A DNA stretch of 64,000 nt from NCBI GenBank assembly GCA_003609755.1, contig AP017991.1:248001-312000 (forward strand). Reading direction: 5' to 3'. Made by a program: the position numbers and the translations under genes. Source of the stretch: Planktothrix agardhii NIES-204 (GTDB lineage: Bacteria > Cyanobacteriota > Cyanobacteriia > Cyanobacteriales > Microcoleaceae). Shown here piece after piece: positions 30,668 through 37,479 of the stretch. Numbering within the stretch: the first letter of the stretch is position 1; each line of letters begins with the position of its first letter. Below the pieces are notes generated by a model. The model was given only the letters and a program-made list of their open reading frames with translations, was not told the origin of the DNA and did not search any database.

Positions 30668-31369
30668 ATGGTTCAACTACAACCTCTGCTATCTTCTGAT
30701 ATTATTTACCCAGAAAGTGACGGTAAACCAATGGCTGATAATACAAAACAATTCCGTTGGATTGTTATTATTAAACAGAATTTAGATCAACTTTATACCA
30801 ATGATCCGAATGTATTTGTCGCCGGAGATTTGTTTTGGTATCCCGTTGAAGGACGCAATACAATTGTGCAAGCACCGGATGTTATGATTGCTATGGGTAG
30901 ACCAAAAGGAGATCGCCCATCCTATAAACAATGGCAAGAAGATGGAGTTTCTCCCCAAGTTGTATTTGAAATTCTTTCTCCTTGTAATTCTCAAACGGAT
31001 ATGGAGAAAAAGCTATTATTTTATGATCGTTATGGAGTAGAAGAATATTACATCTATGACCCGGACAGGAATCAATTTAAAGGGTGGTTACGTCGGGAAA
31101 TGGGCTTAGATGTGATTGAAGAAATTAACGTTTGGGTGAGTCCCCGTTTAGGTATTCGCTTTGATTTATCGGGGGAAGAATTGCAAATTTATCGTCCCGA
31201 TGGTATCCCCTTTTTATCCTATCAGGAAGTTAGCGAACAATTAGCACAGGAACGCCAACGGGCTGAACAAGAATATCAACGGGCTGAAAATGCTCAACAA
31301 AGATTAGCAGAAATGGAAACAGTATTGCAACAATACCGCGATCGCTTTGGTTATTTACCCTCTGAATAA
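30668..31369 (+). CDS. Uma2 family nuclease-fold protein, copy 2, with coiled-coil tail
   Basis: The 233-residue protein has the Uma2 core: APDVMIAMG and VFEILSPCNSQTDMEKKLLFYDRYGVEEYYIYDP carry the acidic and lysine positions of the PD-(D/E)XK-like site. The C-terminal 45 residues (QERQRAEQEYQRAENAQQRLAEME) form a coiled coil, a common Uma2 add-on. It is a single gene divergent from nadK. Its role is unknown. Confidence 0.85.
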   Translation: MVQLQPLLSSDIIYPESDGKPMADNTKQFRWIVIIKQNLDQLYTNDPNVFVAGDLFWYPVEGRNTIVQAPDVMIAMGRPKGDRPSYKQWQEDGVSPQVVFEILSPCNSQTDMEKKLLFYDRYGVEEYYIYDPDRNQFKGWLRREMGLDVIEEINVWVSPRLGIRFDLSGEELQIYRPDGIPFLSYQEVSEQLAQERQRAEQEYQRAENAQQRLAEMETVLQQYRDRFGYLPSE

Positions 31370-33235: not shown

Positions 33236-34780
33236 TTAATCAAAACCTTGGCTTTGGTCTACTATGAGTTCTCTTAGATAATAAAAGCGATCATTTCGCC
33301 AGTCTTCGGTTTTTTTTCGTCCGATATATCCCGCTAGAGGGGAAGACAGTTCGACCAGGATTTCATGAAGTTCCCGTTCTGATAGGAATTGAGGCTGATT
33401 GGAGCAATAACGTCCATGAATTCCTGAAACTGTTGCTTCTGCCATTTGAGCATTATTTAGATAGTCTTTGACTACTTGAATAATATGCGATCGCAATTTT
33501 AAACGATTAAACACGATTTTAATATATTTATCTATGTTATCATCCATTTGACCCCATTCCTCGTTATCATCCATTTGACCCCATTCCTCTTGATCCCCTT
33601 TCTTTTTTTTAAAATAGTCTTTGAGTTCAATTAAGTCAACTGAACCCGGATATTGAGCTTGGAGTTTAACGAGTTTTTCTAATGTTTCAGGATTAATAAT
33701 TGTCATCTTATGTACTTTTGCTGCCTTGTTCAGTTGTTTAGTAGGTTCACTAGGGCCTATAATTAATTTAATGGCGTCTTTGAGCAGTTTTTCATCATTT
33801 AAACGCAGTGTTCCTAAATTTAAGAGTTGAACTGCTGTATCATTGGGGATTTTTCTCCCAGCTTTACATTCTCCAACTAATGGATAGGGTTGTGAACAAA
33901 ATAAATCTAATCCTCCTGCACCTCCTTTATGAGCATAGTCTATAGTAAAACCTAAAAATTCTAAACTTTTTTTGACAATATTCTCAAAGTCTGTTCCGGC
34001 TTGATAGTTGCTTTTGCCTTCATCTAGTTCTTTACTTCCGTTTCCTAATACTGCTATTTCATTGATCCAATTTAAGCTGGAATCATCGGTTAAATTGGCA
34101 GGTTGTGAAGTTTTCCAGCCTAAGAGTTGATGAATATTGGCTTGTAAAAGGTTTAAACCGAGTTGTTCTTCCTGAGATAAAGAGTTAGTTTGAAACTGGG
34201 CGATCGCTGTTTCTAATTCTTCTAATTCAGGATGTTCTGGGGGTTGACGGTTGAGAATTTTTCGATATAGATGTTCAAATTTATTATCATCTAAAATCGG
34301 ATTTGTTTCTGTTACCGTAATAGAATGGGGTAAAGGGACAAATCGAGCATTAGTTAAAGGCGACATTGTTATCGGTTCAGGAAGTTTATAAACCCGAAGA
34401 TAAGTTAAAAAAATGTTTCCTCGCTGTTGTAAGAGGGCCTTTAATCCTTCCTCCGTCCAAAGGGTTACTTTAGATAACTTAGTCAAATCTTCGGGATCGT
34501 TTACTTGAGAACAGTTGTGACATTTACCCCAAAGCTTAATTTCAACTTCATCAGAATTTATTTCATCTAAAACAGTTTTACAAGTTGACAAAAAACTTGA
34601 TTTATAGTATTCCTCAACTGGAAATAAATTCAACAAAGTATTAACGGGATAAAGGGCGAATGATCTCCCCAAATACATATCAACATGAGTAATAATGGTG
34701 ATCATTCTGCCCTGACTTAAGGCAACAATATCAGGATATGGTACTGATAAAGCATTATCAAGCGAAATAGAGTTATACAT
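33236..34780 (-). CDS. DUF1802 + Mrr-like restriction endonuclease protein (third gene of candidate defence operon)
   Basis: The 514-residue protein has three parts. Residues 1-160 match DUF1802 (SLDNALSVPYPDIVALSQGR, RSFALYPVN, FLTYLRVYKLP), including a CxxC (Cys87, Cys90). Residues about 255-330 are a PD-(D/E)XK nuclease of Mrr type: Glu266 (GTDFENIV), Asp292 (GGLDLF), Glu304-Cys-Lys306 (VGECKAG) and Gln318. The C-terminal 100 residues look like a winged-helix or similar small domain. A nine-residue tandem repeat (EEWGQMDDN twice) separates the last two parts. Only 2 bases separate its start from the ATPase stop. DUF1802 has been noted with restriction-type domains, which supports a defence role by inference. 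Confidence 0.75.
   Translation of the reverse strand: MYNSISLDNALSVPYPDIVALSQGRMITIITHVDMYLGRSFALYPVNTLLNLFPVEEYYKSSFLSTCKTVLDEINSDEVEIKLWGKCHNCSQVNDPEDLTKLSKVTLWTEEGLKALLQQRGNIFLTYLRVYKLPEPITMSPLTNARFVPLPHSITVTETNPILDDNKFEHLYRKILNRQPPEHPELEELETAIAQFQTNSLSQEEQLGLNLLQANIHQLLGWKTSQPANLTDDSSLNWINEIAVLGNGSKELDEGKSNYQAGTDFENIVKKSLEFLGFTIDYAHKGGAGGLDLFCSQPYPLVGECKAGRKIPNDTAVQLLNLGTLRLNDEKLLKDAIKLIIGPSEPTKQLNKAAKVHKMTIINPETLEKLVKLQAQYPGSVDLIELKDYFKKKKGDQEEWGQMDDNEEWGQMDDNIDKYIKIVFNRLKLRSHIIQVVKDYLNNAQMAEATVSGIHGRYCSNQPQFLSERELHEILVELSSPLAGYIGRKKTEDWRNDRFYYLRELIVDQSQGFD
33536..33590. repeat. 27-bp in-frame tandem duplication
   Basis: A 27-base unit (starting CATCCATTTG at 33541 and again at 33568) is duplicated inside the nuclease gene and encodes EEWGQMDDN twice. 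It is nearly identical at DNA level, so it is recent. Confidence 0.9.
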
Positions 34781-34782
34781 TT

Positions 34783-36735
34783 TTAAAATCCAGATAAATC
34801 GATATCATTTTCTGATTCATAGTCGCTATTTCCTGGCTCAGAAGATAACGTTAGAGGTTCCTCCATAGTCACATCATCAGGAACTTGGTATGAAGGATCA
34901 CTCAAAATTTCTCGAAGTAATGGATTACTTTCCCCCAAATTATACTTTGCTCCTTTTTCATGAATAAATTTTAAGATTTCTTCTTCTGTTAATTGATAAT
35001 CAACGCTACGCTTTTGATGAACTGCACGAATCGCAATTAAGGGTTTAATTTCTTCTTCATGAAGTTCTACATATTCTCCCCCTTGACGAATTAAAGGTTG
35101 TAGATAAGTTGCTTCCATATAGCCAGTAATTTTTTTAGTTTTAGAACGCACTAAACACCCTCTTGTAATTTCAATTGAATAATCTTGAGGAGCAATCAGC
35201 CTTTTAAACCCTGCTCCTAGCGCATGACCGCCATCATACTGAAGAACTGCTACACCAATTGCTATATCTTTCTCACCCTGTTTTCCTATAATTTTAAAAT
35301 TTAAAAAATTGTCTTTAGACTCTTTTCGTTTTAAACGCCTTACCTGCTCTGTAACTCCTTCAACAAAAATACCTTCAATCGTTTCACCAATTAAACTTTT
35401 GCATCCGAAAAGCAAAGCGTCAGCAATCAAATAATTATCATCAATTGAACTTTCTACATCTTGCTTCATTTCATCATCAAATGCCTGTTTTACTGGGTCT
35501 TTTTCTAAAGGTTCTATTATAACTTTTTTGTCGGGAATAGTTGGATTTTCAGTAGTGAAAGAGACAGGCAATATTTTGTCAGGTAAATTTTTTTTACACA
35601 AATTCAAAACATCTCTTACTGTACTAGATTTTCTTTTCCCTAAATTTCTGAGTTCCTTTTCCTCAAAAGGATAAAGAGGATCGTGGGGAACTAAATTTTT
35701 ACTGGCGTAAAAACTTGATAAACGCATTTTTACTAATTCAATAGCTGCATTCTCATCCACAAATTTTAAACTGAGTGGATCGTGGCTATAACTAGAAATC
35801 TTATGCAAAGGGAAGCTGTCTGGTAGTTTTTTAATCTTGTCTTGCCAAACATTAGGTAACATAACACTTAGAATAATACCTCGTTCGAGGTTTTCAAAGA
35901 GTTCTTTAATTAATCCAGCAACAAACTGTACTCTTGCATATCCTAAATCTGGATCTTGATCAACGATATTATCTAATTCATCAAAACAAATAATAAGCTG
36001 ATTATATTCGCTAATCAAATCTAAAATCTGTAAAACAGCATCAAAAGATAAGTTTTGAGGAGGTAAACCTAATTCTACTGTTTTATGTTGAGCTAATTCT
36101 TGACCCCCTAACCAATTATTAGCATACAAAACTTGCTCTGAAGAAAGTGTCCAAAATAGACATCGAACAATATCAGGATTCAAATTAGGATATTTTGTTG
36201 ATTTTAATTGGCAAAAAGATGTGGTTAACTTAGATATCAAGCCTTTAATTTTCTTTCCAGAATTTGTTACTTTTTCTACTAATTCTTGTGCAGAGTAACT
36301 TCTGATCTTGTTTTGAATAAAAGTTTCATTCGCCATATTAGTAGCGAGTTCCTGCCATTGTCTAACATCCTGACTTCCTTGTTGATTTAAACTATCTGCA
36401 ATGGTTTTTTGGAAACCATGTTTAATATTTTTTAAATCCCCATACTTATTTGCATAAATAAATAAAGCTCCTCCTTGAGATTTTAGGCGATGTCGAATGC
36501 GACTAATAATATGGGATTTTCCCGTTCCATATTCTGCTGTAATCACAATTGATGTTTTACAGTTTTGTTGTAAAGTTTGGAATACAGCATCAGACGCATG
36601 AGCATTCAGAAAAGCCACATCTGGAAACTCTTGTTGCCAGATATTTTGATAAGTTACAGTCACTTCATTAAAAGGATTGTGACTCAGTAGGGCATGGTTT
36701 AAATCTTCGATTGAGGAAGTTTGAGGATTAGACAT
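34783..36735 (-). CDS. AAA-type ATPase (second gene of candidate defence operon)
   Basis: The ATG at 36735 (MSNPQTSSIEDLNHALLS) gives 650 residues; an upstream TTG is less likely. Walker A is EYGTGKSH (Lys73), Walker B is QLIICFDELDNI (Asp252, Glu253), and a sensor-like region includes VMLPNVWQ. The N-terminal HNPFNEVTVTYQNIWQ and the large C-terminal half (about 400-650) have no recognised domain. It resembles large ATPases of BREX/Pgl-type and other defence loci in layout but is not an evident member. It is sandwiched between a winged-helix protein and a nuclease with tight spacing, which suggests one complex. Confidence 0.7.
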   Translation of the reverse strand: MSNPQTSSIEDLNHALLSHNPFNEVTVTYQNIWQQEFPDVAFLNAHASDAVFQTLQQNCKTSIVITAEYGTGKSHIISRIRHRLKSQGGALFIYANKYGDLKNIKHGFQKTIADSLNQQGSQDVRQWQELATNMANETFIQNKIRSYSAQELVEKVTNSGKKIKGLISKLTTSFCQLKSTKYPNLNPDIVRCLFWTLSSEQVLYANNWLGGQELAQHKTVELGLPPQNLSFDAVLQILDLISEYNQLIICFDELDNIVDQDPDLGYARVQFVAGLIKELFENLERGIILSVMLPNVWQDKIKKLPDSFPLHKISSYSHDPLSLKFVDENAAIELVKMRLSSFYASKNLVPHDPLYPFEEKELRNLGKRKSSTVRDVLNLCKKNLPDKILPVSFTTENPTIPDKKVIIEPLEKDPVKQAFDDEMKQDVESSIDDNYLIADALLFGCKSLIGETIEGIFVEGVTEQVRRLKRKESKDNFLNFKIIGKQGEKDIAIGVAVLQYDGGHALGAGFKRLIAPQDYSIEITRGCLVRSKTKKITGYMEATYLQPLIRQGGEYVELHEEEIKPLIAIRAVHQKRSVDYQLTEEEILKFIHEKGAKYNLGESNPLLREILSDPSYQVPDDVTMEEPLTLSSEPGNSDYESENDIDLSGF

Positions 36736-36777
36736 AATAACTGGTACAAGGTAAAGGAACAAAAAAATCAATATTTA

Positions 36778-37479
36778 TTAGGCTTCTAAACGCTTGGTGT
36801 AGTAACGCATAGCTCCTAATTCGGTTTGAATAGAATCTTCAACTTTGTCAGGCGTACTATCTGTCATTTGACCTCCAATCAGTTGAACTAGATCATTAGC
36901 CTGCATTTCTAACATCCATTCACTGAACTGTGAACGAGTAACTTGATCGCCGATAGTCCGACGAATGCGATAAATCGGAACTAAGTTATCATAGTTATAA
37001 TCTTTATTTAATTGATCATACACCTGAAGGGCGATCGCTTTAAACTCATCATAGGAAACGATCGCAGCTTGTTTAACAGATGTTAGAGGAATTCCTCCTT
37101 GATGCAGTTCTCGAATTAACGCAATTAACCCATTGGCTAACCGAGCCGCCACAACCGTTGCATCAAAAACAAAGTCAGGATTTATTAACGAATCAATTAA
37201 TATTTGTTTTCCGGTATCGGTGAGTGATACCATAGGCGTTTGATTTTGCTTATAAATTTTGATGACATCCGCCGCTTGCAGTTCGTCGTAAAGACTTTGA
37301 GAAACACCAACATTTTTCCCCTTGCGTTTTTGCTTAACTTTACTCGTCAATTCACTTTTTTTAACCGTTCCCTCAGTACAACTCATTGCCCATAATGTCA
37401 AGAGTAAACGAGTTTTTTCAACGGTTTCAGTCGCAGAAGAAATAGAACTAGAAGCATCTATAGAAGGTGTGGATGACAT
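36778..37479 (-). CDS. Winged-helix-type protein (first gene of candidate defence operon)
   Basis: The ATG at 37479 (MSSTPSIDASSS) is preferred over an upstream TTG, giving 233 residues. Residues about 20-95 (EKTRLLLTLWAMSCTEGTVKKSELTSK, SLYDELQAADVI, SLTDTGKQIL) read as a winged helix-turn-helix. The middle and C-terminal parts are helical with a second possible winged helix (RIRRTIGDQVTRSQFSEWMLEMQANDLVQL). It starts a three-gene unit with the ATPase and nuclease and may be a DNA-binding subunit or autoregulator. It has no sequence family known to me. Confidence 0.65.
   Translation of the reverse strand: MSSTPSIDASSSISSATETVEKTRLLLTLWAMSCTEGTVKKSELTSKVKQKRKGKNVGVSQSLYDELQAADVIKIYKQNQTPMVSLTDTGKQILIDSLINPDFVFDATVVAARLANGLIALIRELHQGGIPLTSVKQAAIVSYDEFKAIALQVYDQLNKDYNYDNLVPIYRIRRTIGDQVTRSQFSEWMLEMQANDLVQLIGGQMTDSTPDKVEDSIQTELGAMRYYTKRLEA

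Follow-up and report, generated by a model that had tools for sequence, protein, structure and literature searches.

What is the role of three tightly packed genes in Planktothrix agardhii NIES-204, and do they form a defence system? The genes are consecutive open reading frames (ORFs) on the minus strand of AP017991.1, which encode a winged-helix protein, an ATPase and a nuclease, in this order; the window is the whole stretch of 64,000 nt that was analysed. The first-pass annotation had described them as a same-strand trio with gaps of 42 and 2 bases, and the ORF coordinates agree with this description. The features are listed below in window positions.

36778..37479, minus strand: gene 1, winged-helix protein, 233 aa from ATG (ORF, 39-member alignment, weak Pfam wHTH matches)
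37183..37479, minus strand: N-terminal part of gene 1, not tracking ATPase type in Planktothrix
36781..37032, minus strand: C-terminal part of gene 1, tracking ATPase type in 9 Planktothrix loci
34783..36735, minus strand: gene 2, AAA ATPase, 650 aa, ATG start, the swapped subunit (ORF, Pfam, alignment, tree)
36511..36537, minus strand: Walker A of the ATPase (G70, G72 and K73 invariant in 39/39)
35977..35997, minus strand: Walker B of the ATPase (D252 invariant in 39/39)
35002..35511, minus strand: conserved C-terminal domain of the ATPase (R525, C527 and R530 invariant)
33236..34780, minus strand: gene 3, DUF1802-Mrr-like nuclease, 514 aa (ORF, Pfam, alignment)
34268..34753, minus strand: DUF1802 domain, nuclease residues 10-171 (Pfam), tracking ATPase type
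33851..33997, minus strand: PD-(D/E)XK core with E266, GGAGG, D292 and E304-C-K306 (catalytic residues invariant in 39/39)
34553..36828, strand not applicable: replaced tract, without a counterpart by blastn in G255 (L061), a genome of the same species

Translation of gene 1 could also start at a TTG, 33 bases before the ATG, which would give a protein of 244 aa.

Composition and occurrence of the operon

The nuclease was proposed to begin with a DUF1802 domain, and the Pfam match (E 7.9e-25, over the cut-off) bears this out; DUF1802 is present in all 39 nucleases of the intact trios. Mrr_cat stays below the cut-off in the window nuclease (E 0.052) and is matched by 27 of the 39 relatives at E <= 0.1, with a best value of 5.1e-5. 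The conservation of the proposed PD-(D/E)XK active site (Glu266, Asp292, Glu304-x-Lys306) was checked in the orthologues, and all 39 relatives keep these residues as well as C305. An ASCH domain is not among the 16 Pfam families matched by the 39 nucleases. The AlphaFold2 model of the nuclease, built from three near-identical sequences, has a mean pLDDT of 32 and is unusable. The assignment of gene 1 as a winged-helix protein, likewise made at the first pass, is in line with its weak Pfam wHTH matches, and the gene is kept in 10/10 Planktothrix genomes.

The Walker motifs of the ATPase had been called intact, and their key residues are indeed invariant across the 39 proteins, except for E253, the residue after the Walker B aspartate, which is a glutamate in 32 proteins and a glutamine in 7. 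Only KAP_NTPase passes the Pfam cut-off in the window ATPase (22.4 vs 20 bits); it matches 35/39 ATPases at E <= 0.1, Sll1717 matches 29/39 and lies below the cut-off in the window protein, and orc1/cdc6 matches a single one of the 39. The matches behind the ORC/Cdc6 label are weak, and Sll1717 and KAP_NTPase fit the ATPase better. VRR_NUC is touched by two of the 39 ATPases at E <= 0.1, and the C-terminal domain is possibly an inactive restriction-endonuclease-like fold. SeqA binds hemimethylated DNA, and an extra SeqA-like domain is found in 3 of 42 ATPases, with a profile E value of 5.5e-4 to a SeqA chain. Two single ATPases match the SeqA model (4.3e-6 and 6.6e-5); the domain of L122 alone matches PsaF chains best (0.0081), with SeqA at 0.042. 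This domain was not found in the searched plasmids or phages.

The fused DUF1802 nuclease occurs in 43 of 292 cyanobacterial genomes. The co-occurrence of the trio across cyanobacteria was checked, and the ATPase adjoins the nuclease in 42 of these 43 genomes, the nuclease of the 43rd lying at a contig end; intact winged-helix, ATPase and nuclease genes are consecutive ORFs in 39 loci, always in the same order. In G024, which belongs to the same genus as G019 and G042, the trio is absent from a site that is otherwise conserved. The trio genes are found together, and all three may be missing from a conserved site; the nuclease and ATP sites are kept. None of the three ORFs is a methylase, as had been stated at the first pass, and no recurrent methylase emerged when 200 flanking ORFs (>=200 aa) were scanned with a crude motif, which occurred in five ORFs, each at a different locus; those at L071 and L097 are convincing by eye.

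These counts depend on how the sample was drawn. ATPase ORFs of >500 aa at E < 1e-100 number 45, of which 39 belong to full trios; the remaining six are the second ATPase in L052, the orphans L063, L066, L068 and L069, which are without recognised partners, and L077 at a contig end. Also outside the 39 are L045, L067, L070 and L075, where the ATPase is split into two ORFs (as it is at L121), and L098 and L107, which are pieces at contig ends. The trees and tracking tests use 42 loci, namely 37 of the 39 trios plus L119, L120, L122b, L123 and L124; L031 and L032 duplicate L120 and L123 and were dropped, and the first L122 cassette and L121 (G294), which is cut by a contig end, are likewise outside. 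Genomes with a trio-type ATPase were assigned without a single E-value, distant FtsK-type ATPases being left out. The distribution counts cover the 292 genomes; a genome-contig scan with the window protein alone gave two records.

The trio lies at fixed chromosomal sites, and its neighbours look ordinary by eye. The neighbour labels mdh, mutM, psaE and M32 carboxypeptidase were assigned by eye. The defence-island setting was not borne out in a weak test: among six trio-flanking proteins compared with PADLOC, one, beside the trio in L062, matched the candidate-defence model PDC-M43B (4e-5), one matched only above E 0.005 and four had no match. Four of these six were scanned together with six proteins from trio-less sites (L132-L134), which gave two matches to a desaturase-type model besides the one to PDC-M43B. 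The nuclease and the ATPase were not found in the searched viral contigs, nor the ATPase in the searched phages, nor the nuclease and the winged-helix protein in the searched plasmids, where the ATPase gave four weak haloarchaeal matches. These virus, phage and plasmid searches thus give no indication that the trio spreads on mobile elements.

Exchange of the ATPase

Comparison with the same-species genome revealed that the surroundings of the ATPase are 96.0-98.3% identical in DNA, whereas the ATPase itself is 36% identical in protein; the blocks on either side of the replaced tract are 97.2% and 96.0% identical to the other genome (blastn). Planktothrix contains four ATPase types, with 85-96% identity within and 34-41% between types, which sit in four places of the 42-locus ATPase tree. 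The winged-helix and nuclease proteins of this genus each form one clade with a support of 100/100. At least three ATPase changes are forced by well-supported branches in Planktothrix, and monophyly was rejected by the AU test for all nine Planktothrix ATPases (p 6.7e-66) and also for types I and II alone (p 1.7e-5). The ATPase is the repeatedly exchanged component of the trio.

Parts of the partner proteins change with it. The C-terminus of the winged-helix protein is 94-99% identical within an ATPase type and 68-82% between types in the nine Planktothrix loci, and its N-terminal part is 100% identical to that of the same-species genome. In these loci, similarity to the ATPase pattern is strong for the winged-helix C-terminus (r 0.90, p 0.0002) and for DUF1802 (r 0.74, p 0.004) and is lacking for the nuclease core (r -0.16). 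The winged-helix C-terminus and DUF1802 change with the ATPase, and the nuclease core does not. The segments rank in the same order in the 33 other loci; outside Planktothrix the contrast is one of degree, because all segments exceed permutation and the nuclease linker also correlates with the ATPase (r 0.60). As the winged-helix C-terminus and DUF1802 both adjoin the ATPase, physical linkage alone could be the cause of their travelling with it.

Relatives among known systems

The absence of a named system matching this trio, as the first-pass annotation had it, agrees with PADLOC 2023 and NCBIfam, in which no matching named system was found for the three window proteins or the 39 ATPases. The trio is not named in the literature searched, out of whose reach most subscription journals lie, and DUF1802 appears there in an unrelated context only. 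The nuclease shares an Mrr-type PD-(D/E)XK core with Mrr and Type IV restriction; Mrr, however, acts alone, whereas here the ATPase and winged-helix genes are constant neighbours. In Type I restriction, the HsdS recognition subunit is exchanged in an otherwise fixed locus, and by analogy the trio may likewise be seen as exchanging one part of a fixed locus, but here an entire ATPase is exchanged and the operon has no HsdM/HsdS methylase. The resemblance to BREX (BrxC, BrxD, DUF499) is a weak ATPase similarity that other PADLOC models equal or surpass. Within the window trio BrxC is touched by the ATPase alone (E 0.005), the nuclease and winged-helix protein match no PADLOC model, and PglZ, the BrxX methylase and BrxC are not found together; moreover, the ATPase has 650 aa compared with 1200-1300 for BrxC (PMC12839542). 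In Dpd-like (7-deazaguanine) haloarchaeal loci, the ATPase is related by profile to that of the trio (hhalign E 7e-16), but the partner protein there is unrelated by profile to that of the trio: the winged-helix profile does not match it (0.1%), nor does it match the neighbour of the L091 ATPase (8.8%).

Closer relatives are found in a second cyanobacterial operon, whose effector is an exonuclease-PD(D/E)XK-FtsK protein. Judged by profile, its ATPase and winged-helix genes are homologous to those of the trio, and the two ATPases align over 534 columns (hhalign E 2.7e-33). The layout of this operon fits the HerA/FtsK capture systems described in the main text of PMC10853773. In the ATPase of those systems an inactive REase sits between the AAA core and a C-terminal wHTH, a feature to which the conserved C-terminal domain of the trio ATPase may correspond. 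The trio differs from them in having a single nuclease effector and no FtsK-fusion relative, which was found in 0/744 ORFs of the 39 trio stretches at E 1e-3, a search that other HerA families could escape. The same main text describes neighbourhoods of an ORC/CDC6 ATPase, an ASCH-REase and a DndG-like triple-wHTH protein (Rakesh et al. 2024, PMC10853773), in which, as we read them, the same three roles are filled, the restriction-type nuclease again bearing an additional domain, and HerA/FtsK is again lacking; the trio nuclease, in contrast, carries DUF1802 and has no ASCH match. The string 'cyanobacteri' is absent from that main text, although some overlap with that work is possible.

Possible function of the trio

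We consider it probable, at about 0.6, that the trio is a methylase-free, ATP-dependent DNA restriction system directed against invading DNA. In such a system, the ATPase, as putative distant kin of BrxC/BrxD, DpdH and KAP or ORC/Cdc6-type ATPases, would assemble on DNA and would be responsible for recognising the invader or the state of its DNA. The winged-helix protein may dock on the ATPase via its C-terminus and add DNA binding, and the nuclease may be recruited via DUF1802 and cut after ATP-dependent recognition has licensed it. We propose that the host would escape cutting because its own DNA lacks the recognised feature, rather than through marking by a partner methylase. In favour of this reading speak the co-occurrence of the genes, the invariant active site, the swapping of the ATPase with the tracking of its partners, the profile relationship to the second operon and the SeqA-like domains; the ordinary-looking neighbourhoods, the orphan ATPases, the lack of a mobile-element link and linkage as a possible cause of the tracking weigh against it. 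The defence reading of the first-pass annotation is upheld as regards the trio, the active site and the absence of a named match and falls short in the defence-island setting; it had missed the swapping of the ATPase and the FtsK-nuclease relatives.

Several other readings have to be weighed against restriction of invading DNA. The same machine may act on plasmids, conjugating DNA or replication structures, with a Wadjet-like purpose, instead of phages; this overlaps with the restriction reading and differs in the target alone. The proposal that HerA/FtsK relatives intercept segregating or transferred DNA (main text of PMC10853773) speaks for such a target, and the SeqA-like domain could point to a readout of replication or methylation state, but the missing FtsK-fusion translocase counts against it, and we regard it as unlikely. 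Lower again we rank abortive infection, in which the ATPase would sense infection and the nuclease destroy host DNA. Arrangements in which a STAND-like sensor feeds a nuclease are common. The frequent KAP_NTPase matches point the same way, since PMC10853773 (main text) links KAP NTPases to immunity against phages. Nothing decisive opposes this reading; sequence cannot tell host from invader DNA as the substrate.

A role of the trio in the DNA repair or recombination of cyanobacteria, that is, genome maintenance rather than defence, seems to us more doubtful still. It would suit the fixed chromosomal sites, the lack of a mobile-element link and the presence of the winged-helix gene in every Planktothrix genome. 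Against it stand the patchy distribution and the empty site, the exchange of the ATPase within surroundings that are 96-98% identical and the splitting of the ATPase into two ORFs at five loci. That the genes are chance neighbours or mis-called is scarcely credible: it is refuted by the 39 loci in the same order, and no support for it was found.

If the restriction reading is right, the trio would be a methylase-free system of three defined genes that cuts DNA, taken from a cyanobacterium that forms blooms, and it would make the idea of an ORC/Cdc6-type ATPase, a wHTH protein and an REase acting against invaders, drawn from comparative genomics, simply testable. DUF1802, a domain of so far unknown function, would gain the hypothesis that it acts as a docking domain paired with the ATPase, and swaps among the four ATPase types that occur naturally in Planktothrix could show which part chooses the target. 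More tentatively, and with the odds somewhat against it, the trio may be an immune system with an interchangeable ATPase recognition subunit and no methylase. In it, nuclease and adaptor would stay, and a new target would come with the import of an entire ATPase gene and of the docking domains that match it, namely the winged-helix C-terminus and DUF1802; two cassettes would sometimes be stockpiled. At L122, two ATPase cassettes stand in front of one nuclease.

Operon structure, distribution and active sites

The three-gene operon of the first-pass annotation is confirmed from the ORFs, with 42 bases separating the winged-helix and ATPase genes and 2 bases separating the ATPase and nuclease genes:

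36778-37479, minus strand, winged-helix gene
34783-36735, minus strand, AAA ATPase gene
33236-34780, minus strand, nuclease gene

The DUF1802 domain assigned to the nuclease is likewise borne out (residues 10-171; Pfam, E 7.9e-25), and the Mrr_cat match of this protein is weak. A gene at 30668-31369, some 2 kb beyond the operon's downstream end, resembles a Uma2/DUF820-type nuclease by eye.

DUF1802 is present in 66 of 292 cyanobacterial genomes, either as stand-alone ORFs of about 190-280 aa (one piece is 121 aa) or fused to a nuclease in ORFs of 428-524 aa. The stand-alone form is common in cyanobacteria, and the window's own genome carries one (L106:7976-8557). The fusion occurs in 43 genomes of 11 families, and the ATPase family adjoins it in 42 of them, counting four with the ATPase split into two ORFs and one with the ATPase cut by a contig; in the 43rd (G153), the nuclease sits at a contig end. 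The ATPase occurs without the fused nuclease in G133, at a contig end, and in G066, a true orphan. All ten Planktothrix genomes examined have the winged-helix gene and nine have the full trio; in the tenth (G294), a contig end cuts the locus and the start of the ATPase lies in two ORFs. Consecutive ORFs in the order winged-helix, ATPase, nuclease were found at 39 loci, spaced from a 95-base overlap to a 320-base gap. Co-occurrence of the trio across cyanobacteria, expected under the original defence proposal, thus holds. Orphan ATPase relatives at L066:8063-9973, L068:7965-9875 and L069:7985-9895 have no recognised nuclease or winged-helix partner, and that of L066 stands among housekeeping-type genes.

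In the 39-row alignments, nuclease residues E266, D292, E304, C305 and K306 are invariant, and the proposed PD-(D/E)XK residues (E266, D292, E304 and K306) are therefore conserved throughout; DUF1802 was matched in all 39 nucleases and Mrr_cat in 27 (E <= 0.1). In the Walker motifs of the ATPase, G70, G72, K73 and D252 are invariant, and position 253 is E in 32 proteins and Q in seven.

Exchange of the ATPase

The ATPase is the swapped component of the trio. Between the window and G255, a genome of the same species, three DNA blocks align at 98.3%, 97.2% and 96.0% identity and extend into the winged-helix and nuclease genes, with no DNA alignment between 34553 and 36828. Protein identity is 97-100% for the neighbours, 92% for the winged-helix protein, 69% for the nuclease and 36% for the ATPase; the ATPase of another locus, L032, is 92% identical to that of the window. 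Ten ATPases in nine Planktothrix genomes form four types, 85-96% identical within and 34-41% between types. Trees were built from 42 loci: the nine winged-helix and nine nuclease proteins from Planktothrix each form a single clade (100/100), and the ATPases of the genus fall in four places among those of other families, with well-supported branches forcing at least three changes. Monophyly of the Planktothrix ATPases is rejected (p 6.7e-66), as it is for types I and II only (p 1.7e-5; this test omits type IV as well as type III, whose row is long). Tandem cassettes occur at L122:7557-15129 (winged-helix, type II ATPase, winged-helix, type IV ATPase of 841 aa, nuclease, in one operon), and L052 has a second ATPase upstream.

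Two segments track the ATPase. At the nine Planktothrix loci, pairwise ATPase identity correlates with that of the C-terminal part of the winged-helix protein (r 0.90, p 0.0002) and of DUF1802 (r 0.74, p 0.004), and not with the winged-helix N-terminus (0.05) or the nuclease linker (-0.11), core (-0.16) and C-terminus (-0.06). At 33 other loci the values are 0.87 and 0.80, against 0.31, 0.60, 0.19 and 0.21, respectively; the contrast there is a matter of degree because all six segments exceed permutation (p 0.0005 to 0.0175). Linkage is a confounder, as both tracking segments adjoin the ATPase. At L122, DUF1802 is 82-94% identical to that of type II loci and the type II ATPase is not its neighbour. 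This exception to adjacency fits a pairing of DUF1802 with the ATPase and, equally, late insertion of the second cassette, because a type II locus (L124, 92-99%) is also the nearest match for the rest of the nuclease.

Three ATPases, the third from the second L122 cassette, carry an extra C-terminal domain that is absent from the window ATPase:

L053:4237-4572, SeqA-like C-terminal domain
L062:7545-7880, SeqA-like C-terminal domain
L122:13300-13635, SeqA-like C-terminal domain

A profile of the three had SeqA as its sole PDB match (E 5.5e-4) and found no further member among 1332 ORFs. Alone, the L053 domain matched SeqA at 0.0033, and the L122 domain did so at 0.042, outscored by PsaF chains at 0.0081. 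SeqA binds hemimethylated GATC, and the resemblance suggests that some of these ATPases may read DNA state.

Genomic neighbourhood and the defence reading

The trio is an accessory unit. No ATPase match was obtained in G024, a member of the genus of G019 and G042, where the genes around the site keep their order (66-94% identical) and the trio is absent; in two more trio-less genomes these flanks enclose different genes, and a fourth genome (G191) does not conserve the site. The same 509-aa gene lies beside the trio in seven of ten Planktothrix genomes. A convincing methylase motif was seen by eye in a neighbour at two of the 39 loci:

L097:1035-4082, on the trio's strand, methylase-type NPPY ORF of 1015 aa
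L071:11938-13122, methylase-type NPPY ORF

The 1015-aa ORF may be a restriction-modification enzyme.

The best reading is a restriction-like anti-invader system, to which we give a probability of about 0.6; its variable recognition part would be the ATPase and not the nuclease. The defence proposal is partly supported, by the co-occurrence of the trio and the conserved nuclease residues. Against it count the commonest neighbours, which look ordinary by eye (312 flanking genes, 33 non-Planktothrix loci); a PADLOC scan of six flanking proteins, of which one touches a candidate-defence model (4e-5); and searches of viral contigs with the nuclease and ATPase, and of phages with the ATPase, which found none.

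Relatives and published systems

Distant relatives of the ATPase and winged-helix protein were aligned from 14 loci, and profile-profile comparison joined them to the trio (ATPases, A2 against A6, E 2.7e-33 over 534 columns; winged-helix proteins, A3 against A7, E 8.2e-13 over 168 columns). A single protein family lies next downstream at 11 of 17 distant-relative loci, with a small ORF intervening in one; all four such proteins scanned with Pfam are PD-(D/E)XK-FtsK fusions, three with a DEDD exonuclease match, one of these partial. These operons fit the HerA/FtsK capture systems of Rakesh et al. (PMC10853773). The closest published layout, from the same paper, combines an ORC/Cdc6 ATPase, an ASCH-REase and a winged-helix protein of DndG-like type, and lacks HerA. 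We would class the trio as a variant of this theme; no FtsK-fusion relative was found among ORFs of the trio loci, and no ASCH match on the trio nucleases (Pfam). We are less sure of the ATPase's own family: KAP_NTPase was matched in 35 of 39 (over the cut-off in the window protein), Sll1717 in 29 (below it in the window protein), and BrxC/D, DpdH and orc1/cdc6 each in one or two.

Three consecutive genes at L091:5414-10410 encode a DUF559-type nuclease, a 212-aa product that resembles a winged-helix protein by eye, and a 1085-aa ATPase with a HerA-like C-terminal part. In the N-terminal half of an FtsK-fusion relative at L088:10008-13373, one segment looks protein-kinase-like by eye. At two haloarchaeal plasmid loci (L073:7069-9107 and L074:7004-9065), an annotated tRNA-guanine transglycosylase lies beside a two-gene unit, and the L073 ATPase resembles the trio ATPase by profile.
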